From Streptomyces sp. DT2A-34 (GTDB lineage Bacteria; Actinomycetota; Actinomycetes; Streptomycetales; Streptomycetaceae), in the NCBI RefSeq assembly GCF_030499515.1, contig NZ_JASTWJ010000001.1, forward strand, positions 8,288,001 through 8,352,000: a DNA stretch of 64,000 nt, written 5' to 3'. The notes below the pieces were generated by a model. The model saw only the letters and a program-made list of their open reading frames with translations, did not search any database and was not told the DNA's origin. Position 1 is the stretch's first letter. Every line of letters starts with the position of its first letter. The position numbers and the translations under genes were made by a program. Of this stretch, positions 1-25,194 are shown one piece after another.

Positions 1-628
1 CGCCCGCCTCCGTGATCGTCATCTCCACGGCCGTCGGCTCGAAGCCGTTGCAGGGGTTGTTGATCTGGGGGCAGTTGGAGACGAGGACGAGGACGTCGCG
101 CTCGGCGCGCAGCGTCAGGGACAGCCCCGGCGCCGAGATGCCGTCGACGATGCCGAGGGTGCCGTCCTTCTCGACCGGCACGTTCATGTACCAGTTGATG
201 TTGGAGACGAGGTCGCGCTTGCCGAGGCCGTACTCGGCACCCTCGGCGAGGAAGTTGTCCACGCACGCGTGCTGCGCCCAGGTGTGGTGGCCGTACCGGA
301 GCGTGTTCGACTCCTTGGAGCAGGCGCCGCCGAGGGTGTCGTGCCGGCCGACGCCGTCGGCGACGACGGTCATCAGCGGGGTGTGCTCGTTGGACATCAG
401 CACGCTTGACGTGGTGAGGAAGATGCCGCCCTGCGCCTGGATCGTGTCGGGCGCGCTGTAGCGGACGGACGTGTCGTGGGCGTCGTACACGAGGAAGTCG
501 ACGGCCTGGTTGCCGTGCAGGTCGGTGATGGTGAGCGTCTCGCCGGCGCGGACGACGGACGACCAGGGGGCACGGGCCGGAACGACGGTCGTGCTCGTGG
601 TCGTGTTCGTGGTCGTGTTCGTGGTCAT
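1..628 (-). CDS. Urea-carboxylase-associated protein 2 (UAAP2, DUF1989), 3' end cut by window
   Basis: The reading frame starts at an ATG at 628 and is open to the left edge, so the C-terminus is missing. The start overlaps the stop of the upstream DUF1989 gene by 4 bp (ATGA), indicating translational coupling. After a threonine-rich start (repeated TNTT) the protein has DUF1989 features: AGETLTITDLHGNQAVDFLVYD, GRHDTLGGACSKE, NWYMNVPVEKDG and a near-terminal SNCPQINNPCNGFEPT. DUF1989 proteins lie beside urea/guanidine carboxylase and allophanate hydrolase genes. The paired proteins have been described as carboxyguanidine deiminase subunits (CgdAB), which convert carboxyguanidine to allophanate. 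The carboxylase gene would be expected just beyond the left edge. The family is certain; the substrate is inferred. Confidence 0.85.
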   Translation of the reverse strand, partial: MTTNTTTNTTTSTTVVPARAPWSSVVRAGETLTITDLHGNQAVDFLVYDAHDTSVRYSAPDTIQAQGGIFLTTSSVLMSNEHTPLMTVVADGVGRHDTLGGACSKESNTLRYGHHTWAQHACVDNFLAEGAEYGLGKRDLVSNINWYMNVPVEKDGTLGIVDGISAPGLSLTLRAERDVLVLVSNCPQINNPCNGFEPTAVEMTITEAG

Positions 629-1449
629 GCGAGCCCCCTCGCGGCAAGGAATTCGGCGGTGTTGAGGAAGGCGCGGCGGCCCTCGGGGGTGGCATTCCAC
701 AGGGGGTCGTCGGGGCCGGTCGGGGCCGCGCGCCAGGCGAGCACCTCCAGTGGGGTGCTGACGTACTCGGTGCGGGGGTCGGCCGGATGCGGCACGTTGG
801 CGATCAGCACGGTCACGTCCTGCTCGGCGCGCAGGGTCACGCTGCCGCCCGGCCCGGTCGAGCCGGTGAAGCCGAGCGTGCCGTCCTCGCGCACCTCCAC
901 GCCCTGGAAGAAGGACAGGGACGGCGGCAGGTCGCGGGGCTCGAGGCCGTTCTTCGCGGCCGCCAGCTTGAACAGTTCACGGCCGGCGGGGGAGGGGGAC
1001 TGCGCGCTGCCGTCGCCGTAGCGCTCGGTGTTGCGTACGAGGGTGGAGGTGCCGCACAGCGCGTCGTGCCGGCCGGAGGTGTCGGCGACGACGGAGGCGA
1101 GGACGCGGCCCTGGTCGGAGAGCAGGAGTCGGTTCTCGCCGAGGTAGGCGTTCCACTGGACCTTGACCGTGTCGGCGACGTTCAGCCGCTCCCAGGGGCG
1201 GTCGGCCACGTACAGCAGCAGATGCGCGCACGCCTCGCCGCGCAGATCGGTCAGCCGCAGCTGCGCGCCGCGGGCCAGCACCCGGTGCGTGTAGTTGCCG
1301 CCCGCCACCGTCTCGGCCCACACCAGTCGCCCCGCCTCACCGGGCGGCGCCGGCCAGTCCCGGGCCGGTACGACGGGCATGGCCTCGGCCCGGCTCCCCT
1401 CCTGGGCGCGGGCATGGTCACGGGCTCCGTACGTGGTCTCTGTCGCCAT
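625..1449 (-). CDS. Urea-carboxylase-associated protein 1 (UAAP1, DUF1989)
   Basis: First DUF1989 gene of the operon, about 274 residues. The frame could begin at 1488, but the ATG at 1449 has GGAGGT 7 nt upstream and leaves the palindromic operator (1487-1508) outside the gene, so 1449 is chosen. Visible family blocks are LRLTDLRGEACAHLLLY, DTVKVQWNAYLGEN, DTSGRHDALCGTST and SFFQGVEVREDGTLG. With the next gene it probably forms the two-subunit enzyme acting between guanidine (or urea) carboxylase and allophanate hydrolase, in the cytoplasm. Overlap of 4 bp with UAAP2 supports one transcript. Regulation is probably by the divergent TetR protein through the 22-bp palindrome 37 bp upstream. Family call is firm; guanidine versus urea is inference. 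Confidence 0.85.
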   Translation of the reverse strand: MATETTYGARDHARAQEGSRAEAMPVVPARDWPAPPGEAGRLVWAETVAGGNYTHRVLARGAQLRLTDLRGEACAHLLLYVADRPWERLNVADTVKVQWNAYLGENRLLLSDQGRVLASVVADTSGRHDALCGTSTLVRNTERYGDGSAQSPSPAGRELFKLAAAKNGLEPRDLPPSLSFFQGVEVREDGTLGFTGSTGPGGSVTLRAEQDVTVLIANVPHPADPRTEYVSTPLEVLAWRAAPTGPDDPLWNATPEGRRAFLNTAEFLAARGLA

Positions 1450-1486: not shown

Positions 1487-1508
1487 ATTTCTGTCGCCCG
1501 ACAGAAAT
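1487..1508. promoter_or_regulatory. Palindromic operator of the DUF1989 operon (putative TetR site)
   Basis: Perfect inverted repeat: ATTTCTGTCG, two-base centre CC, then CGACAGAAAT. It lies between the divergent UAAP1 and TetR genes. Nearly the same 22 bp, with the same flank TTAGGG on one side, occurs at 12962-12983 before the APC permease. The conserved flank on the gene side reads CCCTAATTT and may include a -10 element. Confidence 0.7.
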
Positions 1509-1622
1509 TAGGGGCGGGGTGGGTCGGGAGGATTACCGCAGTGTTGCCGTGCGGTTACCGCGAGTTCGCGAATGGGTGCTCGCGGAGATCGTCGTGCGCC
1601 CCCGTGTGCGAGGATCGAATCC

Positions 1623-2258
1623 ATGGGTACGTCAGGTGAGCCGGGCAGTCGCCGGGTCGGCAGGCCGCGGGCCGCTCAGCGGCTGGACAGCGGTCTGGAG
1701 CCGCGCGCCGAACTCCTCGCGGCCGCCGCCGAGTTGTTCACCACCCGGGGCTATGCCGCCACCACCACCCGCGCCGTCGCCGAGCGTGCGGGCATGCGGC
1801 AGGCGTCCATGTACCACTACGTCTCCGGCAAGGAGGAACTCCTCGCCGAGCTCCTGGAGTCAACGGTCACGCCCTCGCTCGCGTACGCCCGTGAACTCCT
1901 CGCCGACGACTCGACCCCGGCCGGAGGCCGGCTGTGGGAGCTGTGCCGGGCGGATGTGGAGCTGCTCTGCGGCGGCCCGCACAACCTCGGCGGGCTGTAT
2001 CTGCTGCCCGAGGTGCGCGCCGAACGCTTCGCCGGCTTCCACGCCGTGCGCGCCGAACTCAAGGACGCCTACCGCCAGTTGCTCGCCGCCACGCCCGCGG
2101 GCGGCGCACTCGCCAAGAGCGAGCTGGAACTGCGTACGGATCTGCTCTTCGGTCTGATCGAGGGTGTCATCCTCGTCCACCGCTCCGACCCGGAGCGCCC
2201 GGTGTCGGTGTTCGCCGAGGCCACGGCCGACGCGGCGCTGCGTATCGCGGGGATCTGA
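1623..2258 (+). CDS. TetR-family transcriptional regulator
   Basis: About 211 residues, starting at the ATG at 1623; a longer frame from 1572 has no better support. The N-terminal helix-turn-helix is clear: ELLAAAAELFTTRGYAATTTRAVAERAGMRQASMYHYVSGKEELL (roughly residues 29-75). The C-terminal half is the variable ligand-binding domain. It is divergent from the DUF1989 operon, with the palindrome 1487-1508 between them, so it most likely represses that operon and itself. The second copy of the palindrome suggests it also controls the permease ending at 12928. The ligand is not readable; guanidine, urea or allophanate are candidates from context. Confidence 0.85.
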   Translation: MGTSGEPGSRRVGRPRAAQRLDSGLEPRAELLAAAAELFTTRGYAATTTRAVAERAGMRQASMYHYVSGKEELLAELLESTVTPSLAYARELLADDSTPAGGRLWELCRADVELLCGGPHNLGGLYLLPEVRAERFAGFHAVRAELKDAYRQLLAATPAGGALAKSELELRTDLLFGLIEGVILVHRSDPERPVSVFAEATADAALRIAGI

Positions 2259-2625
2259 GGGGGTCGGCCGCAGGTCTGAGGGGGCGGCCGAAGCGGCGCC
2301 AACCCCTGTCGGTGGTTCGTCGAAACCTGGTGTCTCACTCGTCACGGTGAGTGTTCTTCGCACGTCCGAACGCGATTACGGGCCGTGTTCGAATATGAGC
2401 TTAGCGTATAAAAGAGCCGAGCGTACTCCTGTCACACGCGTCATTTCAGGCGCTTGCTGAATATGACACGGCGGTGATCCTGTCGGACTAAGCTCGCCCG
2501 CAGCGCACCGAGTTGAGGTGTAATCGTGCGCTTGTTCCCAATCATGCAGAAGATTCCGACATACCCATGACATTCCCCCTTGCAAGCTCCCCCTACACCC
2601 ACCCGATTCATTTCAGAGGGCCCAC
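2259..2625. other. Intergenic region upstream of the rar conservon
   Basis: 367 bp without a convincing gene. It is much more AT-rich than its surroundings around 2380-2470. It contains TATAAA at about 2406 and an imperfect inverted repeat, GTCATTTCAG versus CTGAATATGAC, at about 2440-2465. It probably holds the rarA promoter and regulatory sites; no specific operator could be assigned. Confidence 0.4.
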
Positions 2626-4218
2626 ATGGTGAGCGTTCAATCCCCGCCCAGTCGGCGTGAACTCCCGTACGCGCGCGTGCTTTTGCTGCCGGTCATAGTG
2701 ATGGCCGCGGCGACCGGAGCCGCCGTCGCCGTGGTGGCGGAACCGGCCCGGACGGCCGTCGGCGTGTGCGGTGCCGTGGCCTTGTTGCTGGTGCTGGCGT
2801 CCGCGGCCGAAGCGGTGCGCCGCGGCCGCGCTCTGCGGGAGGCGCGGGCCGAGCACGCCCGTCACACCGCGTATCTGGAACGGCGCGTCGCCGCCCACGA
2901 CGCGGAGATGGTCCGCCTCGCCACGGAGATCACGCCCGCTGCGATCCACCGGCTGCGCTGTGGCGCTTCACCCTATGAGGTGATGCGCGACCTCGCCGAG
3001 ATCGACCCGTCCTATGCCCAACTCCCACCGGTGCAGCTCGAGTTCGTGAGGGCGATGGTCGACATCATCGACCACGAGGAAGCCATCCGCGACTCCGCCC
3101 AGCGCTCCTTCGTCAACATCGCCCGCCGCGTCCAGGCGATCGTCCACCAACAGGCCGTGGAACTCAGGGAGATGGAGGAGGACCACGGCCGCAACCCCGA
3201 GGTCTTCGACGACCTGCTGCGCATCGACCACGGCACCATGCTGATCGGCCGCCTCGCCGACTCCATCTCCGTGCTCGGCGGCGGCCGCCCCGGCCGCCAG
3301 TGGCCCGAACCCGTACCGCTGTACAGCGTGCTGCGCGGCGCCATGTCCCGCATCCTGGAGTACCGCCGCATCAGCCTGGACTCCATCGTCAAGGTCAACA
3401 TCGCCGGCATCTCCGTCGAGCCGATCATCCACGCCGCGGCCGAACTCCTCGACAACGCCACGCGCTACTCGCCGCCGCAGACCAAGGTCCACGTCACCGC
3501 CACCGAGGTGCAGACCGGTGTCGCGATCGAGATCGAGGACGCCGGCGTCAGCCTCAGCGAGGAGGCCCGCGCCCGGGTCGAGGGCATGCTCGAACGCGCC
3601 AAGCAGGGCACCGACCTCCAGGACCTCGGCGAATCCCCGCGCCTGGGCCTGGCTGTCGTAGGCCGCCTCTGCACGGCCTTCAACATGCAGGTCTCGCTGC
3701 GTTCCTCCGCCTACGGCGGCGTCCGCGCCGTGCTCGTGGTGCCGCGCGAGATGATGACCACCGACCCCGCGCCCGGACTCGCCCACGGCATCGGCGCCGG
3801 GTCGGCGCCCAAGGCCGAGGGCCCCGATGTGATCGAAGGCCCCAAGCGCGCCCCCAAGAAGCGGCGCCCCACCAGCCCGAAGCTCCCCGCCGCGGTCTCC
3901 CTGTCGGACGACGTCCCCGTCGTCACCGAGTGGACCGCGGGCGGGCTGCCCCAGCGTCGCAGCCGGGTCAAGACCCCGCTCAGCAAGCGGATCGCCGAGC
4001 AGGCGGCCATCGAGCAGGCCGAACGGGAGGGCCGGCCGACCATCTGGTCGACCCGCAAGCCCGAGCCCGACCCCGAGCCGGCGGCGGACGAGCCCGCCCC
4101 CGGTGCCTGGGTCGAGGCGTTCTGGAACGGACTCAAGGACGGTCCGGACCCGCTCACACTCAAACCGCGAACCCAACCGGCCCGCCCCGAGGCCGACGAG
4201 GAGGGGGACCTCAAGTGA
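2626..4218 (+). CDS. rarA: Conservon sensor-like ATPase CvnA/RarA
   Basis: First gene of the conservon, 530 residues. Two hydrophobic segments lie at about residues 17-60 (LLLPVIVMAAATGAAVAVV and GAVALLLVLASAAEAV). A cytoplasmic region carries a histidine-kinase-type ATPase: N box AAELLDNATRYS near residue 273, G1 box IEIEDAG, and LGLAVVGRL. A clear phospho-acceptor H box is not obvious, as in nitrate-sensor-like CvnA proteins. The C-terminal 150 residues are charged and proline-rich. CvnA proteins form a membrane complex with CvnB, CvnC and the GTPase CvnD, and Rar conservons restrain aerial development. The stop overlaps the GTG of the next gene. The assignment to rar (cvn9) rests on gene order and the adjoining P450. 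Confidence 0.85.
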   Translation: MVSVQSPPSRRELPYARVLLLPVIVMAAATGAAVAVVAEPARTAVGVCGAVALLLVLASAAEAVRRGRALREARAEHARHTAYLERRVAAHDAEMVRLATEITPAAIHRLRCGASPYEVMRDLAEIDPSYAQLPPVQLEFVRAMVDIIDHEEAIRDSAQRSFVNIARRVQAIVHQQAVELREMEEDHGRNPEVFDDLLRIDHGTMLIGRLADSISVLGGGRPGRQWPEPVPLYSVLRGAMSRILEYRRISLDSIVKVNIAGISVEPIIHAAAELLDNATRYSPPQTKVHVTATEVQTGVAIEIEDAGVSLSEEARARVEGMLERAKQGTDLQDLGESPRLGLAVVGRLCTAFNMQVSLRSSAYGGVRAVLVVPREMMTTDPAPGLAHGIGAGSAPKAEGPDVIEGPKRAPKKRRPTSPKLPAAVSLSDDVPVVTEWTAGGLPQRRSRVKTPLSKRIAEQAAIEQAEREGRPTIWSTRKPEPDPEPAADEPAPGAWVEAFWNGLKDGPDPLTLKPRTQPARPEADEEGDLK

Positions 4219-4622
4219 TTCAGCAGCGCGCGAACTTCGACTGGATGCTCAAGGAGCTCCACGACGGCGTACCGGGCATCCAGATGATCGTGGTGCTCTC
4301 CGCCGACGGACTGCGCATCGCCCGTTACGGCGGCGACCCGGACACCGCCGACCGCGTCGCCGCGGCCTGCGCCGGCCTGCAGAGCCTGGCCAGCGCCGTC
4401 GCCTCGGAGATCCCGAAGAGCGACGGCAAGATGAAGATGGTCCTGATCGAGATCAACGGCGGCTACTTCTACCTGATGGCCGCCGGCGCCAACGCCTATC
4501 TCGCGGTGCTCTCCGACACGTTCGCCGAACCGGGCCGGATGAGCAACCGCATGACCGACCTGGTCGCCCGCATCGGCGCCCATCTCACCAGTCCGCCCCG
4601 GCGCAACGGGCAGACCGTATGA
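4215..4622 (+). CDS. rarB: Roadblock/LC7 domain protein CvnB/RarB
   Basis: 135-residue roadblock/LC7 protein starting at GTG 4215, which overlaps the rarA stop (GTGA). It begins NFDWMLKELHDGVPGIQMIVVLSADGLRIAR and contains DRVAAACAGLQSLASAVASEIPKSDGKMKMVLIEINGGYFYLMAAG, typical of this family. By homology with MglB-type proteins it should modulate the GTPase encoded two genes downstream and bind CvnA at the membrane. It overlaps the next gene by 4 bp (ATGA). Length and sequence are standard for CvnB. Confidence 0.92.
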   Translation: MIQQRANFDWMLKELHDGVPGIQMIVVLSADGLRIARYGGDPDTADRVAAACAGLQSLASAVASEIPKSDGKMKMVLIEINGGYFYLMAAGANAYLAVLSDTFAEPGRMSNRMTDLVARIGAHLTSPPRRNGQTV

Positions 4623-5026
4623 CTCCTCCGCAACGCCAGCGGCGATCCCCCAAGGAACAACCGCCTCCACCACCGCCGCCCGCCAAGACCGGGAAGCAGA
4701 AGAACCCGGAACGGCTCTTCGTGGTGGCCGGCCCGGACGGCGGCGAGCGCGACGGGGACCTCGACCTGGTCACCTTAATCGTGGCGCGCGCCGACCCGCC
4801 GCCCTCCGCCCCGCCGGAACAATCGGCGCTGCTCCGGCTCTGTACCGCCCCTCTGTCCGTGGCCGAGCTCTCGGCCTATCTCAACCTGCCGTTCAGCATG
4901 ATGACGGTCGTGCTCACCGACATGCTGACGGCCGGACTGGTGACGGCGCGCGCCCCGATCGTGCGCCAGGCCGTCGCCGACCGTTCAATTCTCGAAGCGG
5001 TGATGCATGGACTTCAAAGGCTCTGA
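4619..5026 (+). CDS. rarC: DUF742 protein CvnC/RarC
   Basis: 135 residues. Start is ATG 4619 inside the rarB stop. The N-terminal 30 residues are basic with a proline run (PPPPPPP). The DUF742 domain follows: PERLFVVAGPDG, LDLVTLIVARADPPP, LLRLCTAPLSVAELSAYLNLPFSMMTVVLTDMLTAGLVTARAP. The second half resembles a winged-helix fold, which the family is thought to use for contacts within the Cvn complex. It overlaps rarD by 20 bp. It always travels with CvnA, B and D, so the assignment is secure although its mechanism is unknown. Confidence 0.92.
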   Translation: MTPPQRQRRSPKEQPPPPPPPAKTGKQKNPERLFVVAGPDGGERDGDLDLVTLIVARADPPPSAPPEQSALLRLCTAPLSVAELSAYLNLPFSMMTVVLTDMLTAGLVTARAPIVRQAVADRSILEAVMHGLQRL

Positions 5027-5627
5027 CATCATCCCCGGTCCACGGACCGAGGACCAGCTGCCGCACACGGCCGAAGCCGCGGTCAAGATCGTGATCGTGG
5101 GCGGCTTCGGCGTCGGCAAGACGACCATGGTCGGTGCGGTCAGCGAGATCAAGCCACTGACCACCGAAGAGACCATGACGCAGGCAGGCATCGGCGTCGA
5201 CGACAACTACGGCTCGGACACCAAGACGGCCACCACCGTCGCGATGGACTTCGGCCGCATCAGCATCACCGAACAACTGGTGCTGTACCTCTTCGGCACG
5301 CCCGGCCAGGAACGCTTCTGGTTCCTGTGGAACGGGTTGTTCGAGGGCGCGCTGGGCGCGATCGTGCTGGTCGACACCCGCCGTCTCGAGGTCAGCTTCG
5401 ACGTCATAGGGCGACTGGAGGAGTGCGGCGTGCCCTTCGTGGTGGCCGTCAACACCTTCCCGGACGCTCCCCGTTACCCCGTCTCCGAACTCCGTACGGC
5501 ACTCGACCTGCCCGAGGAGATCCCGATCGTCGAGTGTGACGTCCGCCGCCGGGCCTCCAGCCGCGACGTCCTGATGACCCTGATGCACTTCCTGCACGCG
5601 CTGGCCACGGCGAAGGCTCCGGCGTAA
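5007..5627 (+). CDS. rarD: Conservon GTPase CvnD/RarD
   Basis: 206-residue MglA/Ras-like small GTPase. The P-loop GGFGVGKT lies at residues 32-39, FGTPGQERF marks the switch II region, and VNTF stands where Ras proteins have NKxD. It begins within rarC (20-bp overlap). GTP/GDP switching is expected to be controlled by RarB and RarA. In Streptomyces such GTPases affect the timing of aerial growth and antibiotic production. The family call is firm from the motifs; the regulatory target is unknown. Confidence 0.93.
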   Translation: MDFKGSDIIPGPRTEDQLPHTAEAAVKIVIVGGFGVGKTTMVGAVSEIKPLTTEETMTQAGIGVDDNYGSDTKTATTVAMDFGRISITEQLVLYLFGTPGQERFWFLWNGLFEGALGAIVLVDTRRLEVSFDVIGRLEECGVPFVVAVNTFPDAPRYPVSELRTALDLPEEIPIVECDVRRRASSRDVLMTLMHFLHALATAKAPA

Positions 5628-5652
5628 GGCACGCACACCCCGCGCACACCTC

Positions 5653-5695
5653 CTCCCCCGGTCCCGGCTTCGCCGAACCGCCCGGACCGGGGGAG
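5653..5695 (+). terminator. Hairpin between rarD and the P450 gene
   Basis: Perfect 12-bp stem, CTCCCCCGGTCC with GGACCGGGGGAG, around a 19-nt loop in the 116-bp gap after rarD. There is no T run. It may be a partial terminator or an mRNA-stability element that lowers P450 expression relative to rarABCD. Confidence 0.5.
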
Positions 5696-5743
5696 CCCTT
5701 CACCTCTGCACACCGGAACCACTTCAGCTTCGGAGCGACCATC

Positions 5744-7219
5744 GTGACGCCTGAATCTCTCTTCCCGACCGGTACGGACGAGCCCATGGCCTCCCCGCCC
5801 CCCGGCTGCCCCGCGCACGGCATCGGCCCCGGCGGGCTGCGCCGGCTGTACGGCCCCGAGGCGGAGGACCTGGGAGCCGTGTACGAGAAGCTCCGTGCCG
5901 AGCACGGCCCGGTGGCTCCGGCGCTGCTGCACGACGATGTGCCGATCTGGGTGGTGCTCGGCCACAGCGAGAACCTGCACATGGTGCGCACTCCCTCGCA
6001 GTACTGCCGTGATACCCGGCAGTGGGCCGCCCTGCAGGACGGCACGGTCAAGCCCGACCATCCGCTCATGCCGCACTTCGCCTGGCAGCCCATCTGCAGT
6101 CATGCCGAGGGCGACGGGCATCTGCGGCTGCGCGGTGCGGTCAATGGCGCCATGTCGACCATCGACCACCGGGGTATCCGCCGCTACATCAACCGCGCGA
6201 CCCAGCACCTCGTCAACCAGTTCTGCGAGGAGGGCAGGGCCGAGCTGGTCAGCCAGTTCGCCGAGCACCTGCCGATGGTGGTGATGTGTGAGATCCTCGG
6301 CATGCCCGAGGAGTACAACGACCAGATCGTGCAGGCCGCTCGCGACATGCCCAAGGGCACCGAGACCGCGATCGCCAGCAACGCGTACCTCATGGACGTC
6401 CTGATGCGGCTCACCGCCCGCCGCCGGACCGAACCCAAGGACGACTTCACCAGCCATCTGATCAACCACCCGGCGCGGCTCACCGACGACGAGGTCGGCC
6501 AGCACCTGCGCATCATCCTGGTCGCCGCGTATGAGGCCACCGCCAACCTGATCGCCAACGTCCTGCGGGTGGTACTCACCGACCCGCGGTTCCGTGCCCA
6601 GCTCAGCGGCGGCCAGATGACGGTGCCCGAGGCGGTCGAGCAGTCCCTGTGGGACGAGCCGCCGTTCAGTACCGTCCTTCCCTACATCGCCAAGCAGGAC
6701 ACCGAGCTGGGCGGCCAGCGCATTCGCAAGAACGACGGCCTCGTCCTCGGCATCGCGCCGGGCAACGTCGACCCGCGCGTTCGGCCCGACCTCAATGCCA
6801 ACATGCAGGGCAACCGCTCCCACCTCGCCTTCGGCGGCGGCCCCCACGAGTGCCCGGGTCAGGACATCGGCCGCGCCATCGCCGAGGTCGGCGTCGACGC
6901 GCTGCTGACCCGCCTGCCTGACGTCCAACTCTCCTGCGAGGAGGACGAGCTGTGCTGGCGGGCGTCCATCTCGAACCGGCACCTGGTGGAACTGCCGGTG
7001 AAGTTCGCGCCCAAACCCCAGCAGGACGTCATGGCGCGGCCCGCGCATCCGATGGCCTCGCAGCGTCCCGGTAACTGGCCGGTCAGCCCGCCACAGCCGC
7101 AGTCGGCGACTCCGGAGCCTGCCACTCCGTCCACGGCTCCGACGCCGACGCCGACACCCGAACCGGCTGGTCGCCCGGGCGTGTTCCGGCGCCTCCTGCG
7201 CTGGTGGCGCGGCGACTGA
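5744..7219 (+). CDS. rarE: Conservon cytochrome P450 (CYP157-like, no ExxR motif)
   Basis: 491 residues, GTG start at 5744. Heme-binding loop FGGGPHECPGQD with cysteine ligand at about residue 370. The I-helix reads AAYEAT. At the K-helix, where P450s carry ExxR, the sequence is EQSLW (residues 299-303), so the usual Glu/Arg pair is missing. CYP157C1 of S. coelicolor is known for exactly this feature. The last 60 residues are a proline/threonine-rich tail ending in basic and aromatic residues (FRRLLRWWRGD), possibly for membrane or partner contact. P450s are the fifth member of several conservons. The redox substrate is unknown, and no ferredoxin gene lies nearby. Confidence 0.88.
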   Translation: MTPESLFPTGTDEPMASPPPGCPAHGIGPGGLRRLYGPEAEDLGAVYEKLRAEHGPVAPALLHDDVPIWVVLGHSENLHMVRTPSQYCRDTRQWAALQDGTVKPDHPLMPHFAWQPICSHAEGDGHLRLRGAVNGAMSTIDHRGIRRYINRATQHLVNQFCEEGRAELVSQFAEHLPMVVMCEILGMPEEYNDQIVQAARDMPKGTETAIASNAYLMDVLMRLTARRRTEPKDDFTSHLINHPARLTDDEVGQHLRIILVAAYEATANLIANVLRVVLTDPRFRAQLSGGQMTVPEAVEQSLWDEPPFSTVLPYIAKQDTELGGQRIRKNDGLVLGIAPGNVDPRVRPDLNANMQGNRSHLAFGGGPHECPGQDIGRAIAEVGVDALLTRLPDVQLSCEEDELCWRASISNRHLVELPVKFAPKPQQDVMARPAHPMASQRPGNWPVSPPQPQSATPEPATPSTAPTPTPTPEPAGRPGVFRRLLRWWRGD

Positions 7220-7238
7220 GCCGACCCGGCCCTCGGGG

Positions 7239-8180
7239 CTACCTCGCCCACTCCTCGTACGACGACCAGGCCCGCAGTACGCGCGGGCTGACGAACCGGT
7301 GCTCCCTCCCCGTGACCGGATCGGTGAACTCCAGGACGCGCGCCAGCAGTTGGAGCGGTTGCCGGAAGTCACCGGCCGGCACGGGGTCGGTCACCACCGG
7401 ATAGAGGGGATCGCCGAAGATCGGCACCCCCAAGGCGCTCATGTGCACCCTCAGCTGGTGCGTCTGCCCGGTACTCGGTGTCAGCCGGTACCGGGCACGC
7501 TCGTCCCGGTGTTCCAGCAACTCGATCCGGCTGACGGCGTTGGGCTCACCCTCGACCTCGTGGGCCGCGAGGATCCCGCGCTCCTTGACGATCCGGCTGC
7601 GCACGGTGCGTGGCAGGTCCAGTGCGGGGTCGTACCGGGCCACCGCCTCGTACTCCTTCGCCACCCGCTTGTCGCGGAACAGAGTCTGGTACGCGCCGCG
7701 CTCTTCCGGTCGCACGGTGAACAGCACCAGCCCGGCCGTCAGCCGGTCCAGCCGGTGCGCCGCGCTCAGCGTCGGGACGCCCAGCTCCCGCCGCAGCCGC
7801 GCCAGGGCCGTCTCGGCGACATGGCTGCCGCGTGGCGTGGTCGCCAGGAAGTGGGGCTTGTCGGCCACCACCACGTGCTCGTCCTGGTAGACGACGTCGA
7901 CCGCGAACGGCACCCGCTCCTCGTCGGGCAGCTCACGGTGGAACCACACGTACATCCCCGGCGCGTACGCCATGTCCCGCCGCACCGGACGCCCGGCGAC
8001 GTCCACGATCTGCCCCGCGTCGAGCATCGCGTCGATCACCCCGGCCCCGGCCGCGAGCCGCGCCACGAGATGATCCCGCACGGTCGCCCACGCGTCCCCG
8101 GCCGGCAATCGCACGCGCACCGGATCGACCCCGTCGCGCTGCGGCAGGGGAGAGGGCGGGGGTGGCGTACGGCGTCTCAT
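7239..8180 (-). CDS. RluA-family pseudouridine synthase
   Basis: 313 residues from the ATG at 8180; the frame is open further upstream, but that extension is arginine-rich and unlike the family. Core blocks: PFAVDVVYQDEHVVVADKPHFLATTPRG, the catalytic motif HRLDRLTAG (aspartate near residue 147), RVAKEYEAVAR, TGQTHQLRVHMSALGVPIFGDPLYP. It isomerises uridine to pseudouridine in rRNA or tRNA; the target site cannot be told from sequence. The N-terminal region is a poor S4 match. It is convergent with the P450 gene, 19 bp apart. Confidence 0.85.
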   Translation of the reverse strand: MRRRTPPPPSPLPQRDGVDPVRVRLPAGDAWATVRDHLVARLAAGAGVIDAMLDAGQIVDVAGRPVRRDMAYAPGMYVWFHRELPDEERVPFAVDVVYQDEHVVVADKPHFLATTPRGSHVAETALARLRRELGVPTLSAAHRLDRLTAGLVLFTVRPEERGAYQTLFRDKRVAKEYEAVARYDPALDLPRTVRSRIVKERGILAAHEVEGEPNAVSRIELLEHRDERARYRLTPSTGQTHQLRVHMSALGVPIFGDPLYPVVTDPVPAGDFRQPLQLLARVLEFTDPVTGREHRFVSPRVLRAWSSYEEWAR

Positions 8181-8389
8181 CGGGACCAAGCCTACGAGTG
8201 GTGACTGACAGCGAGGGGATGAGGCGGGGCACCCGGACGAGCGCAGTCGGGGCGGCTCGAGGACAGGGCGTAGCCGCACGCGCCACGGCGGCCCTCAGCG
8301 GCCCCCGCTGGGGAGCCGGGCGGGGCGCTGCAGGTGGTCATCGGGCAGGAGTGCGCTTCCAGCGCTTGAAGCGTCGGTCACCGCCCGGA

Positions 8390-8444
8390 CTGTCTTGTGG
8401 GACGGTGCACGGCGGTCAGTCGTCTGCACCGTCCCACGAAACAG
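8390..8444 (-). terminator. Hairpin downstream of the terpene synthase gene
   Basis: Inverted repeat with a perfect 13-bp core (GTGGGACGGTGCA / TGCACCGTCCCAC) that extends to 20 bp with two mismatches, loop 15 nt. It lies 20 bp after the terpene synthase stop codon and probably ends that transcript. Confidence 0.55.
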
Positions 8445-8463
8445 CGTTTCTCTGGGCGGGACA

Positions 8464-9489
8464 CTATGGAGACACCGGTGCGAGGTTCGCTGGGTGAAGC
8501 TGTCCGGTGACATCCGGGCTCAGGGCGCTGGCGGTGTGTGGGGAATAGCGGCCGTTGTTGCGGCTCCAGTCGTAGCTGCCGCGAATCCACGTGAACATGG
8601 CGGTCGCATAGCGTTGGACCTTGTCGGCCTCCGTGCTCGTGAGCCCGAGCCGGGAGCAGAACAGGGGGGTCCGCCTCACCTGTTCAAAGAGCTGGCTGAC
8701 CGCTGCCTGGACGAGAGTGACGGCCACTCTGATGGCTTCCTGTCGGGAGCAGTCGCGTTGCCGCATGAGGCAGTGCACCAAGTTGGGATCACCTCGTGCG
8801 TCGTCGTTCTCCAGGGACATCACCTCGTTGATGAGTTTGACGGCGTCGACAGCCGCTCGTCTCATCGATTCCAGATGGCTGCTGTGCCAAATGATCTGTG
8901 GGATCTCGAAGTGCCCCACCCTTTCGGCAAGGTCGAGCGAGGGGATCAGCCCCAGGGTGCGGTGCCCTATCCTCATCCGGGTGGCGAAGTCCTGGGGGGC
9001 CCATGTGCGACGGTCGATTTCCTCAGTGAGGTTTCCCGACAGGTAGTCCACCCAGTTGTGGGCGGCCCGTAGCTGCCATTCTTCGGACATGCCCGTCCTG
9101 GCTCGGCGCCAGATGTCGGCGAAGGCGCTCACCAGAGGTGCAGCGTGGTCGGCTCCGCGCGGCGAGGGGTGGGTGATGAGTGCGATGAGTTGCTGGCACA
9201 CGTCGACGGCTTCATCGGCTGTGCGCCCCTCAGGGACGTCAAACAGGTCGTCGAACAGGAAGAACCAGCCCATGGTGTCAAAGGCCAGGTCCAGGTCCTC
9301 GCCGGCGGCGTCCGGGTAGCTGTAGGCAGCCAGATCCGCCACTGCCGAGAATACGTAGCGACGGGCGGCACTGTGTCCCAACACCAGTTTCTGCCGGCGC
9401 ATCCATTCCAGATTGCGGTCCCTGGCGGCTGCCAAACCGGAGTTCAGTCGGGGTGGAATGGGTAAATTGATGGTGATGTTCTGGGGCAT
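8464..9489 (-). CDS. Class I terpene synthase (sesquiterpene-type)
   Basis: 341 residues, the usual length of bacterial sesquiterpene cyclases. Aspartate-rich metal motif DDLFD at residues 80-84 (after FFLF). The second metal motif fits N221-E-V-M-S225-L-E-N-D229, a variant NSE triad with Asp in the last place, followed by ARGDPN. A C-terminal RY pair lies at about residues 314-315. These residues bind three Mg2+ ions and the diphosphate of a prenyl substrate, probably farnesyl diphosphate. The start has GGGAGA 5 nt upstream. No P450 or methyltransferase directly adjoins it, so the product may be an unmodified hydrocarbon or alcohol. The exact product cannot be predicted. Confidence 0.85.
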   Translation of the reverse strand: MPQNITINLPIPPRLNSGLAAARDRNLEWMRRQKLVLGHSAARRYVFSAVADLAAYSYPDAAGEDLDLAFDTMGWFFLFDDLFDVPEGRTADEAVDVCQQLIALITHPSPRGADHAAPLVSAFADIWRRARTGMSEEWQLRAAHNWVDYLSGNLTEEIDRRTWAPQDFATRMRIGHRTLGLIPSLDLAERVGHFEIPQIIWHSSHLESMRRAAVDAVKLINEVMSLENDDARGDPNLVHCLMRQRDCSRQEAIRVAVTLVQAAVSQLFEQVRRTPLFCSRLGLTSTEADKVQRYATAMFTWIRGSYDWSRNNGRYSPHTASALSPDVTGQLHPANLAPVSP

Positions 9490-9519
9490 GACTCTCTCCC
9501 AGTTTCTGCCTCAGCATGC

Positions 9520-9756
9520 TTATTGGCCCAGGAGGTCGGGTGGTCGTCGCTGCCTGGTGTCTGCGGGTGTCACTGCCTCGGGATCTTTGTCCGGAGGACC
9601 ATCGAATTCGATCGGTGACGTAGGTGGCTCTCCAACCGAGATGAGCGGTGGCGTCCTCTGCTCGTGCGGCCCGGGTGCCGGCGAGCCGGTCGGAATCGGC
9701 CGACGGGCGCATGGGGGGACGGCCCGAGGTAACGGGGAGCGAGCAGAGCCTTTCAT
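9520..9756 (-). CDS. Possible small proline-rich protein upstream of terpene synthase
   Basis: 78-codon frame that ends 30 bp before the terpene synthase start on the same strand. The ATG at 9756 has GGAGGG 4 nt upstream. The peptide is rich in proline and arginine (PLPRAVPPCARRPIPTG, PPTSPIEFDGPPDKDPEA) with no membrane segment. I do not recognise it. It could be a leader protein cotranscribed with the terpene synthase, or chance coding capacity in high-GC DNA. Confidence 0.35.
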   Translation of the reverse strand: MKGSARSPLPRAVPPCARRPIPTGSPAPGPHEQRTPPLISVGEPPTSPIEFDGPPDKDPEAVTPADTRQRRPPDLLGQ

Positions 9757-9794
9757 GATGCCCTCCGGTTAGCGGAGTCGACCAAGTTCATGAA

Positions 9795-10217
9795 CTACGC
9801 GCTGTGCTCCATACGCTGCCACCGCGGCATGGCTGACTCGTGTACGTCTTGGGCCTGTTGACCGAACTGGTCGGCCCGGGCCTCGACCGCCGGACGGCGC
9901 GGATAATCGGTGGTCACCCCCGCCACGACCGCGGCGTCGGCGACGCGGTCGTGGATCACCTCCACCTTCCAGTGCCCCTATGGGTTTCGTCAACTGTTCA
10001 AGCGAGGCGGGGCTGGTGGAAGGCGTTCGCGGAGCCTCGCGAAGAGCGCGTCCAGCAGAAGCCGGCCTCATATTCTCGGCGACCGAACCGGCGCGTTTCC
10101 CGGAGCCGCATTCCCGAGTCGCCATGGGACGCCGTTCCCCGTGGCCAGGCGGTACCGCCCCAGCTCGGCCGGCTCGTTGTAGCGATCCCGAGGCGCACTG
10201 CCGAGCATCGCGGGCAT
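9795..10217 (-). pseudogene. Possible decayed coding sequence beside the IS element
   Basis: One minus-strand frame reads like protein but is broken by three stops. The first piece (ATG 10217 to stop 10068, 49 codons) includes RYNEPAELGRYRLATGNGVPW. The last piece (GTG 9965 to stop 9795, 56 codons) includes DRVADAAVVAGVTTDYPRRPAVEARADQF. The pieces stay in the same frame, which suggests one former gene worn down by point mutations. I do not recognise the family. Chance open frames in GC-rich DNA are an alternative. Confidence 0.25.
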
Positions 10218-10285
10218 CCGGACACCACCCCCATGGGCCCGGGTACGACACGTCTCATGCCGTCAACTCGCCCTGACAGCCCTAA

Positions 10286-10303
10286 GAAGTCATCTCATTT
10301 GGC
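10286..10303. repeat. IS terminal inverted repeat, left
   Basis: 18 bp, GAAGTCATCTCATTTGGC, preceded by TAA. Perfect complement of 11122-11139. Confidence 0.9.
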
Positions 10304-11100
10304 GAGTCTGCGGTAGCAGATGAGGGTGCAGGCGATGCTGGTGAAGGCCAGGAAGTGGTCGGCTTTGCGCTCGTAGCGTCGGTGGAGGCGGCGGCAGCCG
10401 GCGAGCCAGGCCATGGTGCGTTCGATGGTCCAGCGGTGGCGGCCCAGTCGCTGCGAACTCTCGATGCCCTTTCGGGCGATGCGGTGGGTGATGCCACGTT
10501 GGCGTAACCATCGACGCAGGTGGGAGTAGTCGTAGCCCTTGTCGGCGTGGAGCTTGCCCGGCCTGCGACGTCGGCGTCCACGGCGGGAACGGATTGGCGG
10601 TATGCCCTTCACCAGAGGGATCAGGGCCTGGCTGTCGTGCAGGTTCGCCCCCGAGATTCCGACAGACAAGGGCAGACCGGTCCGCTCGGTGATGAGGTGG
10701 ATCTTCGACCCGTACTTGCCCCGGTCGACAGGATTCGGACCCGTCAGGTCCCCCTTTTCAGGGCCCGCATGTTCACGGAGTCGATCGCGCAGCGGGTCCA
10801 GTCCAACTCGCCGCGAGCGCCGAGCTCGTCGAGGACCAGGCGGTGGAGCTTGGCCCACACCCTGGCCTTCGTCCACTCGGCAAAGCGCCGATGGGCCGTC
10901 GCTCCCGACGGCCCGAACGACGCGGACGGCAACTGCTGCCACGTGCAGCCTGACGTCGCCACGAACACGATCGCGGCCAGCACTTCCCGGTCACCATGGC
11001 GGCGTCGGCCACCTCCTTGAGGCCGCGAGGGAGCCTCTGGCACCACTCGCTGGAACAAATCCCACAACTCATCCGGCACCAGCCGCTCAACGATCCCCAC
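10295..11100 (-). CDS. IS5-family transposase, two frames joined by -1 frameshift
   Basis: Frame A (11100 to 10744, 118 codons) starts MGIVERLVPDELWDLFQRV and holds the first catalytic aspartate in CAIDSVNMRALKRG. Frame B continues KGDLTGPNPVDRGKYGSKIHLI, HADKGYDY (second aspartate) and RRWTIERTMAWL (glutamate), completing the DDE triad. The joining point is the run AAAAGGGGG near 10755. A slip of one base back on the G run fuses the frames. Programmed frameshifting is normal for this IS group, so the element may be active. The stop codon of frame B lies inside the left inverted repeat. Confidence 0.85.
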
Positions 11101-11121
11101 GAGCTACAGCCTACCGAGTCA

Positions 11122-11139
11122 GCCAAATGAGATGACTTC
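11122..11139. repeat. IS terminal inverted repeat, right
   Basis: 18 bp, GCCAAATGAGATGACTTC, followed by TAA. Perfect complement of 10286-10303. Confidence 0.9.
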
Positions 11140-11368
11140 TAACTACGCACCATGCGATGGTTTCCGGCCGCCGGAAAGGGCGTGCACCCGGGCGCGTGGG
11201 CGGACCCTGTGGCCGCCGCATGCGCGGTCTCATATCCCACGGCCGGTGCGCCGCTGGTCCGGGCCGTTCGCGGCAGCTGGGAAAGCGGTTCGTTGCCGAG
11301 GCAGGACATTCGACCCCCGAGCGTCCATGAGGTGCCGCACTCCGGGCTACGAAGACACGACGGCGGCG

Positions 11369-12928
11369 CTACGGAGTCGGTTCCCGGAGTGCCTCCACAG
11401 GTTCCGCAGCAGAGCGCACCCGTTGCGCGCGCGTCAGCCGGAACAGGACCCCGAGCCCCACCGTGACCAGCAGGAACAGCACCGTGAACCACTGGAAGTA
11501 CCAGTGCCCACCCGCCGGGTCATACACCGCCGCCCGCGGCCAGGCGAGGTTCACGGTCATGACCAGGCCGTACAGCAGCGCGAGGGCGTTGACCGGGACA
11601 CCCCAGCGGCCGAGGGAGAACAGGCGGGCGCCCGTCTCGTCGGTGCCGTCGGCAGCGAAGCGGCCGCGCAGGCGGGCGATCAGCAGCGGACCGGTCACCA
11701 TCGCGTACGCCAGGTACAGCATCACGATGCAGGTCGTGCCGATGGCCAGGAACGCCTCCGGCGAGGCGAAGTTGAGCAGCAGCAGGGCCGCCGCGAGGAC
11801 GCCGACCACCACGGCGGGTGCGGGGGGCATGCCGGTGCGCGGGTTGACCTTCGCGAGGCGGCGGGAGAACGGGAGTTGGCCGTCGCGGGCCATCGAGAAC
11901 AGCATCCGGCAGGCCGCCGTCTGGATGGCGAGGGTGGCCACCGTGATCGCCACCACCACGTCGGCCAGCAGCGCCCGGCCCACGCCGTCGCCCAGGCTGC
12001 TCGTCAGGACGTAGCTCAGGCCGTCGACCGCCAGCCGGCCGTCCGTGAGGCTCGGTGCGGCGAGCAGCCCGCCCAGGACGAGCAGGCCGCCGAGCAGGCC
12101 CGCGGCGCCCAGTGCGGTGAGGATCGTGCGGGGCGCGGTGCGGCGCGGATGGCGCGTCTCCTCGCTCATCTCGCCCGCGCTGTCGAAGCCGATCATCACG
12201 TACGCCGCCGTGAAGGAGCCGACCAGCAGCGCGCCCAACAGGCCGGACTCGGCGGCGCCTTCGGTGTGGAAGGTGATGCCGGGGGAGCGTTCGGAGTGGG
12301 TCAGCAGCAGCGCGATGATGAGGACCGCGCCGATGATCTCGGCGGTCACGCCGACGCGGTTGATCAGCGACAACACGCGGTTGTCCACGAGGTTCACGAG
12401 CGTGGTGAGGGCCAGCAGGGCGACGCCGAGCACGGCCGCGTTGGCCGCGCCGTCCGCCGAGGTCGGCGCGGGGTCGGTGCCGATCAGCTGGAAGCCGGAC
12501 CAGAGGGCCGGCAGCACCATCTGCAGGGCCAGCGCCGCCGCCGCGACCACCACGATCTGCCCGATCACCATGATCCAGCCGGCGAACCAGCCGAAGGTGA
12601 CGTTCGAGAGCCGCGACGACCACTGGTAGATCGCGCCCGAGATCGGATAGTGCGCCGCCAGTTCCGCGAAGCACGCCGCCACCAGCAACTGCCCGACGAG
12701 CACCGCCGGCCAGGCCCAGAAGAAGACGGGACCGCCGAACGCGTACCCGAAGGCGAAGAACTGGAAGACGGTCGTCAGGACGGAGATGAAGGAGAAGCCC
12801 GCCGCGAACGACGCGTACCGGCCGAGGCTGCGGTGCAGTTCCTGGCGGTATCCGAAGGCGGCGAGGGAGCGGGCGTCAGGGTCGTGCGGCGGATCGGGGC
12901 GAGGGGGGGCGGGGGCGGTGCTCGTCAT
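11369..12928 (-). CDS. APC-superfamily amino acid/amine permease (urea-carboxylase type)
   Basis: About 519 residues and 12 hydrophobic segments. The ATG at 12928 is preferred over the GTG at 12949. APC features include FAELAAHYPISGAIYQWSSRLS in the first third, IGFDSAGEMSEETRHPRRTAPRTI and RMLFSMARDGQLPFSRRLAKVN. Permeases of this type are found beside urea-carboxylase and DUF1989 genes. Here the gene is about 10 kb from them but carries the same palindrome (12962-12983) 34 bp upstream of its start, so it probably belongs to the same TetR regulon. Import of guanidine, urea or a related amine is inferred from this link. The IS element lies just downstream. Confidence 0.82.
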   Translation of the reverse strand: MTSTAPAPPRPDPPHDPDARSLAAFGYRQELHRSLGRYASFAAGFSFISVLTTVFQFFAFGYAFGGPVFFWAWPAVLVGQLLVAACFAELAAHYPISGAIYQWSSRLSNVTFGWFAGWIMVIGQIVVVAAAALALQMVLPALWSGFQLIGTDPAPTSADGAANAAVLGVALLALTTLVNLVDNRVLSLINRVGVTAEIIGAVLIIALLLTHSERSPGITFHTEGAAESGLLGALLVGSFTAAYVMIGFDSAGEMSEETRHPRRTAPRTILTALGAAGLLGGLLVLGGLLAAPSLTDGRLAVDGLSYVLTSSLGDGVGRALLADVVVAITVATLAIQTAACRMLFSMARDGQLPFSRRLAKVNPRTGMPPAPAVVVGVLAAALLLLNFASPEAFLAIGTTCIVMLYLAYAMVTGPLLIARLRGRFAADGTDETGARLFSLGRWGVPVNALALLYGLVMTVNLAWPRAAVYDPAGGHWYFQWFTVLFLLVTVGLGVLFRLTRAQRVRSAAEPVEALREPTP

Positions 12929-12961
12929 GGCGGCAACCTGCTTTCGCACAGCGGCGCGAGA

Positions 12962-12983
12962 GTTCCTGTCGGGCGACAGAAAT
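12962..12983. promoter_or_regulatory. Second copy of the DUF1989-operon operator, before the permease
   Basis: Reads GTTCCTGTCG, GG, then GCGACAGAAAT-type right half. It matches the site at 1487-1508 in 18 of 22 positions, including the whole right half CGACAGAAAT and the flank TTAGGG. It lies in the same orientation relative to the gene it precedes. Confidence 0.65.
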
Positions 12984-13127
12984 TAGGGAGGGGCTGTTTC
13001 GAATGCATGACGTGCTCATGTCCGAGCCGATCCTAAGTCCTCACGGATGGGCGTCGCAGGCCTCTTGTGGCAGCCGACGGGCTCCCGGGGCGCGGTGCGG
13101 CAGCCGACGGGCTCCCAGGGCACAGCG

Positions 13128-23751: not shown

Positions 23752-25194
23752 TCAGTCCCGTGCCAACTCTGCCTCGGCCGCCGCCAGCGCCGCGAACTCC
23801 TCCTCCGGCGCCTGCGCCACCAGCCGCTTACGGCTGTACAGACCGAAGTACCCGACGGCCACGACGTACACCGCCAGCGCGATCAACGCCGCCGTCACGT
23901 CCACCAGGAACGTGGCCACCAGCGCCGCGCAGGCCAGCACCAGGGCGACCGACGACGTCAGCACCCCGCCCGGTGTGCGATACGGTCGCGCGAGCTCGGG
24001 CTCCCTGCGGCGCAGCACGATGTGCGACAGGGACATCAGCGCGTAGGAGATGGTCGCGCCGAAGACCGCGATGTTCAGCATCCGGGCGCCGTCACCCGAC
24101 ACCGCCGCCAGCAGGAAGCCGATCGTGCCGGGCACCAGCAGGCCCAGGTACGGCGCCTTGCGGCGGCTGGTGAGGGACAGGAAGCGGGGCAGGTAGCCCG
24201 CGCGGGAGAGAGCGAACAGCTGCCTCGAGCCGGCGTAGATCAGGGAGAAGAACGACGCCACCAGGCCCGCCAGGCCCGCGTAGTTCACGATCCGGCTCAG
24301 GGTCGTCGCCTCGCCGTCCGGCTGGAGCGCCTCCACCAGCGGGTTGCCCGCCTCCTGGATCGCCGCGGAACCGCGCGCCCCGGCCGCCGCGAAGAAGGTG
24401 ACCACCGCCAGCACCACCAGGATGGCCATCGACCAGCGGATCGCCTTCGGCAGCGTACGGGCCGGCTCCTTGGTCTCCTCGGCCGCCAGCGGCACGCCCT
24501 CGACGCCCAGGAAGAACCACATGCCGAACGGGAACGCCGCCCAGATGCCGAGCAGGCCGAACGGCAGCCAGGAACTCGACCCCGCCGCCGACGTGTCGAC
24601 CGGGATGTCGTCCAGCCCGGCCAAGGAGAAGTCCGGCAGCGCCGCCAGCGCGAACACGACCAGGGCGACCACCGCGATGCCGGTGACCACGAAGCTGAAG
24701 CGCAGCGCCTCGCCCACGCCCCACAGGTGGATACCGAGGAAGATCGCGAAGCAGACCAGGTACATCGGCCAGCCGGACTCCAGGCCGAACAGGCCCAGCG
24801 ACTCGACGTAGTCGCCGATGAAGATGACGATGGCGGCGGGTGCGAGGACGTACTCGATGAGGATCGCCGTACCGGTCAGGAAGCCGCCCCAGGGGCCGAG
24901 CGCCCGCCGGGCGAAGCCGTAGCCGCCGCCCGCCGTGGGCAGGATCGAGGACAGCTCGGCGAGGGCGAAGACCATGCAGGCGTACATCGCCCCCATGAGC
25001 ACCATGGCGATCGCCAGGCCCCCGAAGCCGCCCTCGGCCAGGCCGAAGTTCCAGCCCGAGTAGTCGCCGGAGACGACATAGGCGACGCCGAGACCGGTCA
25101 GCAGCACCCAGCCGGCGCTGCCGCGGCGCAGCGTTCTGCGCTCCAGATAGTCGTCCGCCTCGGGGGCGGGTGTGCTGGTGGATTCCAGGGACAT
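23752..25194 (-). CDS. Ethanolamine-type APC permease
   Basis: 480 residues and about 12 membrane segments, start at ATG 25194. It begins LERRTLRRGSAGWVLLTGLGVAYVVSGDYSGWNFGLAEGGFGG, which is characteristic of the ethanolamine permease group, and contains EGVPLAAEETKEPARTLPKAI and SRQLFALSRAGYLPRFLS. It probably brings ethanolamine into the cell for the glnA4 pathway. Upstream, at 25263-25285, lies a motif also found before glnA4, which suggests shared control by the GntR protein encoded next to it. Cotranscribed with the amidohydrolase downstream. Confidence 0.85.
   Translation of the reverse strand: MSLESTSTPAPEADDYLERRTLRRGSAGWVLLTGLGVAYVVSGDYSGWNFGLAEGGFGGLAIAMVLMGAMYACMVFALAELSSILPTAGGGYGFARRALGPWGGFLTGTAILIEYVLAPAAIVIFIGDYVESLGLFGLESGWPMYLVCFAIFLGIHLWGVGEALRFSFVVTGIAVVALVVFALAALPDFSLAGLDDIPVDTSAAGSSSWLPFGLLGIWAAFPFGMWFFLGVEGVPLAAEETKEPARTLPKAIRWSMAILVVLAVVTFFAAAGARGSAAIQEAGNPLVEALQPDGEATTLSRIVNYAGLAGLVASFFSLIYAGSRQLFALSRAGYLPRFLSLTSRRKAPYLGLLVPGTIGFLLAAVSGDGARMLNIAVFGATISYALMSLSHIVLRRREPELARPYRTPGGVLTSSVALVLACAALVATFLVDVTAALIALAVYVVAVGYFGLYSRKRLVAQAPEEEFAALAAAEAELARD

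Follow-up and report, generated by a model that had tools for sequence, protein, structure and literature searches.

How might a Streptomyces control the use of guanidine as a nitrogen source and keep an importer gene in step with a catabolic operon lying about 11 kb away? This question is raised by a 64,000-nucleotide stretch of Streptomyces sp. DT2A-34 (contig NZ_JASTWJ010000001.1, positions 8,288,001 to 8,352,000), called here the window, in which a first-pass annotation had proposed that two copies of a 22-bp palindrome, the first adjoined by a TetR gene, link an operon of DUF1989 genes to a distant permease gene in a protein-controlled guanidine or urea regulon. The evidence assembled below makes it very likely that the locus is a Streptomyces AmtR regulon for guanidine as nitrogen source, with repression by AmtR and probable activation by GlnR. 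The core link between AmtR, the carboxylase operon and a separate permease is already published for S. avermitilis (PMC4222082, PMC8864220). Added here are the reading of the AmtR target genes as guanidine rather than urea genes, the GlnR-type boxes and the overlap of the -10 elements with the operators. Read directly from sequence are the two sites and how specific they are within the genome and the genus, together with the gene family assignments, the diagnostic carboxylase residues and the conserved elements of the promoters.

Two AmtR-type sites in the window

Site 1, ATTTCTGTCGCCCGACAGAAAT, is a perfect 22-bp palindrome between UAAP1, the first gene of the operon, and the TetR gene, and site 2, GTTCCTGTCGGGCGACAGAAAT, stands upstream of the APC permease gene, about 11 kb away in the same window (Table 1). 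As the first-pass annotation had described, the two share 18 of 22 positions, differing at the other four, and both run on into TTAGGG. The TetR protein encoded beside site 1 is AmtR-like by comparison with the PDB, where its best match is 5e57, 'Transcription regulator AmtR' of M. smegmatis (2.3e-35), and where the first six matches (5e57, then 5dy1, 5dxz, 5dy0, 5mqq and 6gy3) range from 2.3e-35 to 7.3e-28 and the next stands at 9.7e-12. Labels in the PDB name AmtR for 5e57, 5mqq and 6gy3 and the TetR family only for 5dy1, 5dxz and 5dy0, which we take to be AmtR structures as well. Both sites carry CTGT-N6-ACAG and fit the form CTRT-N6-AYAG, which is our merger of the two published AmtR operator forms, namely the 22-bp consensus TAtCTGTCa-n2-cGACAGATAT, credited to Chen et al. 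2013, and the Corynebacterium box CTAT-N6-ATAG (PMC8864220). With the former they share the core CTGTC-N4-GACAG, and with the latter its geometry.

Searches were made with the 20-bp pattern common to both sites, TTYCTGTCGNNCGACAGRAA, derived from these two sites; it replaced a shorter pattern, CTGTCGNNCGACAG, which at two mismatches gave 998 matches per strand versus 1235 in its control and was rejected. Allowing up to three mismatches, TTYCTGTCGNNCGACAGRAA is found in the window only at sites 1 and 2, each on both strands, against a chance expectation of 0.01. The scan of the whole 10.3-Mb genome proposed by the first-pass annotation gave 12 places at the same threshold, the two sites without mismatch and ten others with three, compared with 14 places for the reversed pattern, and so no third site with fewer than three mismatches was found in this genome.

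The operon runs in the order UAAP1, UAAP2, guanidine carboxylase and allophanate hydrolase, the last two lying outside the window in the adjoining stretch L031, and the coordinates of both the UAAP1-UAAP2 and the UAAP2-carboxylase pairs overlap by ATGA. UAAP2 (L031:15939-16700) runs beyond the window edge and likely starts with the ATG at 628 that overlaps the UAAP1 stop. For UAAP1, whose open reading frame is listed from 1488, inside the operator, the ATG at 1449 preceded by GGAGG is the likelier start. Measured from the end of the 20-bp core, site 1 lies 38 bp upstream of this ATG and site 2 lies 34 bp upstream of the permease ATG (12928). Between the sites a domain search found a weak P450 match, a pseudouridine synthase, a terpene synthase and a transposase, in agreement with the terpene synthase and insertion sequence element noticed there before. 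The same genome holds a permease paralogue with 47% identity (G000:C1:8557511-8558968), and similar paralogues exist in many genomes without the operon.

Table 1. Predicted features of the locus and related modules (window positions unless a locus label is given)
Feature	Position	Strand	Basis or remark
UAAP2 / CgdB, DUF1989 subunit of presumed carboxyguanidine deaminase	1..628	-	TIGR03424 328.9 bits, cut-off 284.7
UAAP1 / CgdA, DUF1989, first operon gene	625..1449	-	TIGR03425 315.6 bits, cut-off 205.95
Guanidine carboxylase (predicted)	L031:12430-15942		outside window; operon member
Allophanate hydrolase	L031:10748-12409		outside window; operon member
amtR, TetR-family repressor (predicted)	1623..2258	+	PF00440 (TetR_N) 58.7 bits, cut-off 24; best PDB match 5e57
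APC-superfamily permease, presumed guanidine importer	11369..12928	-	TIGR03428 647 bits, cut-off 740.45; PF13520
AmtR operator 1 (predicted)	1487..1508	.	perfect 22-bp palindrome between UAAP1 and amtR
AmtR operator 2 (predicted)	12962..12983	.	upstream of permease
Predicted -10 TAATTT, UAAP1 promoter	1505..1510	-	overlaps operator edge; TAATTT in 69/69 aligned UAAP1 promoters
Predicted -10 TAATTT, permease promoter	12980..12985	-	TAATTT in 53/54 aligned permease promoters
GlnR-type box, UAAP1	1521..1558	-	four half-sites, 11-bp spacing: GTAAC-n6-GCAAC-n6-GTAAT-n6-GACCC
GlnR-type box, permease	12996..13022	-	GACAT-n6-GTCAT-n6-GAAAC
Oxygenase + 282-aa protein	L223:13883-15785; L264:8409-10369; L265:2531-4331		within AmtR/guanidine carboxylase clusters

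Distribution of the operator

Because TTYCTGTCGNNCGACAGRAA was derived from the two window sites, its count across the genus is an independent test. Among 101 evenly drawn Streptomyces genomes, the source genome included, the operator at up to one mismatch occurs in 24, at two places in 22 of them, at a single place in G043 and at three in G050, and the reversed pattern matches in 2 of the 101. An AmtR relative (E <=1e-25, scoring limited to 30 first-look candidates per genome) is present in 38 genomes, with at least 62% identity in 34, and UAAP1 (at most 25 candidates scored) in 28. All 24 operator genomes fall within these 34 and these 28, none of the other 77 has the operator, and the hypergeometric values for the two co-occurrences, computed ignoring kinship, are 1e-15 and 2e-19. 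The operator precedes UAAP1 in 24/24 genomes and a second copy precedes the APC permease gene in 22/24; of the remaining two, G094 has its second operator before a sodium:solute symporter gene (PF00474), and G043 lacks both a second site and a permease gene in the 11 kb examined. The third site of G050 has one mismatch and lies inside an open frame of 399 amino acids; with this, and no third site below three mismatches in the source genome, a large regulon was rejected. The palindrome did not turn up at many unrelated genes, the outcome that the first-pass annotation had named as fatal to its proposal. In four genomes (G002, G006, G019 and G061) a UAAP1 operon (UAAP1 58-61% identical) is followed just downstream by an AmtR gene of 39-43% identity, and the operator is absent.

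A permease of at least 72% identity was found in 23/101 genomes (up to 14 candidates scored), namely the 22 and G094, there on another contig. A separate contig of G094 (C369) carries fragments of AmtR (93%, 24423-24710) and of the permease (89%, 9833-10909), representing a second copy or contamination, and the genome also has a fuller, more distant AmtR/permease set. In 16 of the 22 genomes the stretch between amtR and the permease gene contains genes matching the window reading frames 2626-4218, 5007-5627 and 5744-7219 (P450 and the genes that the first-pass annotation labelled rar-type); in six it does not, and the window has the former arrangement.

The best 80 named AmtR loci (77 labelled Streptomyces, one Actinacidiphila and two only 'Actinobacteria bacterium') follow the same rule. 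The operator (up to two mismatches) is present in all 69 that hold UAAP1 and in 0/11 of those without it, two of which (L180, L209) are short contigs beginning by amtR. It precedes the permease gene in 55 of the 63 loci in which a permease was found. Of the remaining eight, five have a permease that reaches the end of the stretch or comes within 15 bases of it, so that its upstream region falls outside, and three have the operator farther up, in front of other genes. Inspection by eye of the region upstream of amtR revealed no operator-like palindrome in 13 loci that lack the operon. Several Streptomyces loci (L109-L118, L237, L239, L240, L242, L244, L247, L248, L250, L251) have amtR without operator, operon or nearby permease gene. 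In L096 (16461-16500) a weaker tandem copy with two mismatches adjoins the permease operator, and the same is seen in L188 (19043-19082), probably of the same genome.

In a class-level sample of 246 genomes UAAP1 occurs in 25, of which 16 are outside Streptomyces, and 13 of these 16 loci have AmtR in the stretch taken. The form CT[AG]T-N6-A[TC]AG is found at 21 places in the 16 stretches, of which 15, in 12 loci, lie within 350 bp upstream of an estimated UAAP1, permease or symporter start (both counts without chance control). Four loci lack it: L158 and L161, which have neither carboxylase nor AmtR, and L162 and L163, which have the two. In L156 a site is present but the stretch contains no AmtR.

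Carboxylase residues and the search for riboswitches

In K. lactis urea amidolyase (3va7, 5i8i) position 1330 is Asn and 1584 is Asp; at the equivalent positions, that of 1330 being located via the offset between the two chains, the carboxylase of this locus has Asp and Asp. Asp at both is the criterion for guanidine carboxylases (PMC11410670), and the Asp/Asn rule is stated in PMC12186494. Because of the two Asp residues guanidine is favoured over urea, and it is the likely substrate. Both residues are Asp in 46 of 48 Streptomyces and class-level loci, the remaining two having no carboxylase in the stretch, and in 67 of the 68 named loci with a carboxylase (68/80), the last being unread at 1584; the two sets overlap in genomes.

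The first-pass annotation had seen no guanidine riboswitch in the leader, and a search of the locus with Rfam at E up to 1 agrees, returning only two small nucleolar RNA models, both under their gathering scores. No guanidine-I riboswitch was found in the genome among the 150 of 299 first-look candidates scored, classes II-IV not being sought genome-wide. Of the 16 class-level loci, 14 had matches at gathering score, all of them to group II introns or RNase P and none to a guanidine riboswitch; the other two, and four Streptomyces loci, had no Rfam match. Control by a guanidine riboswitch was rejected on the results for the locus and for guanidine-I in the genome.

Promoter elements and GlnR-type boxes

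When promoters are aligned on the operator, their upstream sides share CCCTAAT, which contains the start of TAATTT. The actinomycete -10 element has the form TANNNT, which TAATTT fits. The conservation of the TTAGGG flank is accounted for by the overlap of this predicted -10 with the edge of the operator. Above each promoter stands a GlnR-type box with half-sites spaced 11 bp apart. Published GlnR boxes read gTnAc-n6-GaAAc in S. coelicolor and t/gTAAC-n6-Gc/aAAC in M. smegmatis (PMC10704036); the first UAAP1 box has the M. smegmatis form, and the permease box is one base off that of S. coelicolor. At a single register, GTNAY-n6-GNAAY is present in 63/69 UAAP1 promoters and GTNAY-n6-GMAAC in 42/54 permease promoters, with none in the 80 bp downstream.

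GTNAY-n6-GMAAC occurs at two places in the window, 1543-1558 and 12996-13011, a number that is not rare (0.72 expected; 17 of 100 shuffles reach two or more), so that the evidence lies in the positions, one per promoter, and not in the number. The promoters compared come from related strains, and their shared columns are not independent. The four-half-site pattern was fitted to the UAAP1 site, its only exact match in the genome, and a genome-wide scan with such a pattern was rejected as independent evidence, its control being similar (5 and 5 versus 4 and 0). With these reservations, the conserved boxes point to a second control, probably of GlnR type, at both promoters.

Alternative importers and an oxygenase module

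In four loci a sodium:solute symporter takes the place of the importer (L093:7923-9498, the only one in which PF00474 was tested, L165:10588-12111, L153:10133-11991 and L265:914-2413), and the first three lie behind AmtR-type sites. In L222, L223 and L230 the permease operator precedes genes for a 282-aa (amino acid) protein and a 2-oxoglutarate Fe(II) oxygenase, a module that is intact in L223 and broken by deletions in L222 and L230. An AmtR-type site stands in front of the module in L223 and L264, and none was seen in L265. Among solved structures the oxygenase is closest to 9ovh (1.4e-59), whose name, 'ethylene/succinate-forming enzyme', may have been assigned automatically; guanidine is released by ethylene-forming enzyme and by plant homoarginine hydroxylases (PMC11018352). 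The 282-aa protein matched no Pfam or NCBIfam family, and a single-sequence fold prediction gave no usable model (mean predicted local distance difference test score 32.5). Among 295 Streptomyces genomes it was found in two, G463 and G501 (E <=1e-20, up to eight candidates scored per genome), in both beside the oxygenase inside a guanidine carboxylase cluster. In G463 a site lies at L264:10369; G501 has, in one direction, UAAP1, UAAP2, carboxylase, 282-aa protein, oxygenase, symporter and AmtR, and no AmtR-type site was found there.

Discussion

From these features we infer binding, repression, GlnR activation, substrate and effector as follows. The AmtR protein encoded beside site 1 would bind both 22-bp operators, and since these overlap the predicted -10 and the presumed transcription start, the bound protein would block the promoter to RNA polymerase. 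Promoter 1 would serve CgdAB (UAAP1/2), the guanidine carboxylase and allophanate hydrolase, and promoter 2 the APC permease, probably the guanidine importer. The box above each promoter is probably bound by the global nitrogen activator GlnR, which would recruit RNA polymerase, so that full expression would need both nitrogen limitation and release of AmtR. Release might come from guanidine or another compound of the pathway, or else from GlnK, since release by adenylylated GlnK is proposed for C. glutamicum AmtR (PMC8864220).

Certain observations count against parts of this model. The outer arms of the two sites (TTT/AAA) deviate from the published AmtR consensus. The permease scores under the cut-off of TIGR03428, 'permease, urea carboxylase system', and could transport some other substrate. 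Ten of the 34 AmtR genomes have neither the operator nor the UAAP1 operon, and because they keep AmtR all the same, the protein may have other targets. Guanidine as the effector is a guess, as urea and amino acids failed to release M. smegmatis AmtR (PMC4222082) and the available text of PMC8864220 gives no known small-molecule effector for C. glutamicum AmtR.

This last point bears on whether AmtR only sets the level of expression, with no release linked to guanidine and nitrogen control coming from GlnR alone, which is a possibility to be taken seriously, if not the outcome we would expect. In M. smegmatis the nitrogen response of the AmtR target genes depends on GlnR and stays intact without AmtR, and the effectors tested were inactive (PMC4222082). 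On the other side, the available portions of that paper do not name guanidine as one of the compounds tried, and the operator in the present genome is limited to pathway genes, as expected for a substrate-specific repressor. That the operon degrades urea through a urea carboxylase, with the permease importing urea, is improbable, although the family names (TIGR02712, TIGR03424/5, TIGR03428) say so and the AmtR literature speaks of urea metabolism (PMC10704036). Against it stand Asp instead of Asn at 1330 together with Asp at 1584, the DUF1989 subunits of carboxyguanidine deaminase, and the failure of urea to release M. smegmatis AmtR. A urease alpha subunit also scores over its cut-off elsewhere in the genome, and since urease is present the use of urea needs no carboxylase. 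Slightly less probable still is binding of both palindromes by another regulator with AmtR merely a neighbour, to which the four genomes with a distant AmtR beside a related operon and the ten with AmtR but no operator would lend some weight, because the sites carry the core of the published AmtR boxes, the operator is confined to AmtR genomes and, outside the genus, the merged form recurs in the corresponding promoters of 12 of the 16 actinomycete loci (without chance control).

With AmtR repression of guanidine genes preferred, a broader idea can be put forward, which we hold only tentatively: AmtR of actinomycetes may be a repressor of guanidine use that replaces the riboswitch, is released by a guanidine-pathway signal, and marks a wider regulon with interchangeable importers (APC permease or sodium:solute symporter) and, in some Streptomyces, an oxygenase/282-aa module freeing guanidine from arginine-like compounds. 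Reading the AmtR target genes as guanidine genes offers in itself a direct and cheap test for the AmtR effector. It would also indicate a route by which soil bacteria of a large group could sense guanidine with no riboswitch involved, and it makes the operator a tool for finding further guanidine genes, for example those of the oxygenase module. Among the papers listed by a literature search, none joins guanidine use to AmtR or GlnR by its title, a weak negative as most subscription papers lie outside its coverage.

Comparison with known systems

The AmtRsav regulon of S. avermitilis resembles the present locus in having amtR opposite to the carboxylase-amidase operon, the permease gene elsewhere and the core CTGTC-N4-GACAG. 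Chen et al. 2013 are said to have defined AmtRsav sites in the same two intergenic regions and reportedly described two further ones, whereas here there is no third site with fewer than three mismatches. The genes concerned there are amtR (sav6701), carboxylase (sav6698), amidase (sav6697) and, located elsewhere, permease (sav6709) (PMC4222082); the substrate is taken there as urea or left unassigned in the text available, in contrast to guanidine in the present reading. AmtR of M. smegmatis, the closest solved structure (5e57), has the same target gene set and represses within the GlnR modulon: it binds upstream of the permease gene, and its loss raises permease, carboxylase and amidase transcripts, but its gene does not lie beside the targets (PMC4222082). 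In enzymes the locus matches the riboswitch-controlled guanidine carboxylase pathway, with carboxylase, carboxyguanidine deaminase, allophanate hydrolase and importer (PMC12186494, PMC11410670), the difference being that control is exerted there by guanidine-I and guanidine-II riboswitches and would be exerted here by a DNA-binding repressor.

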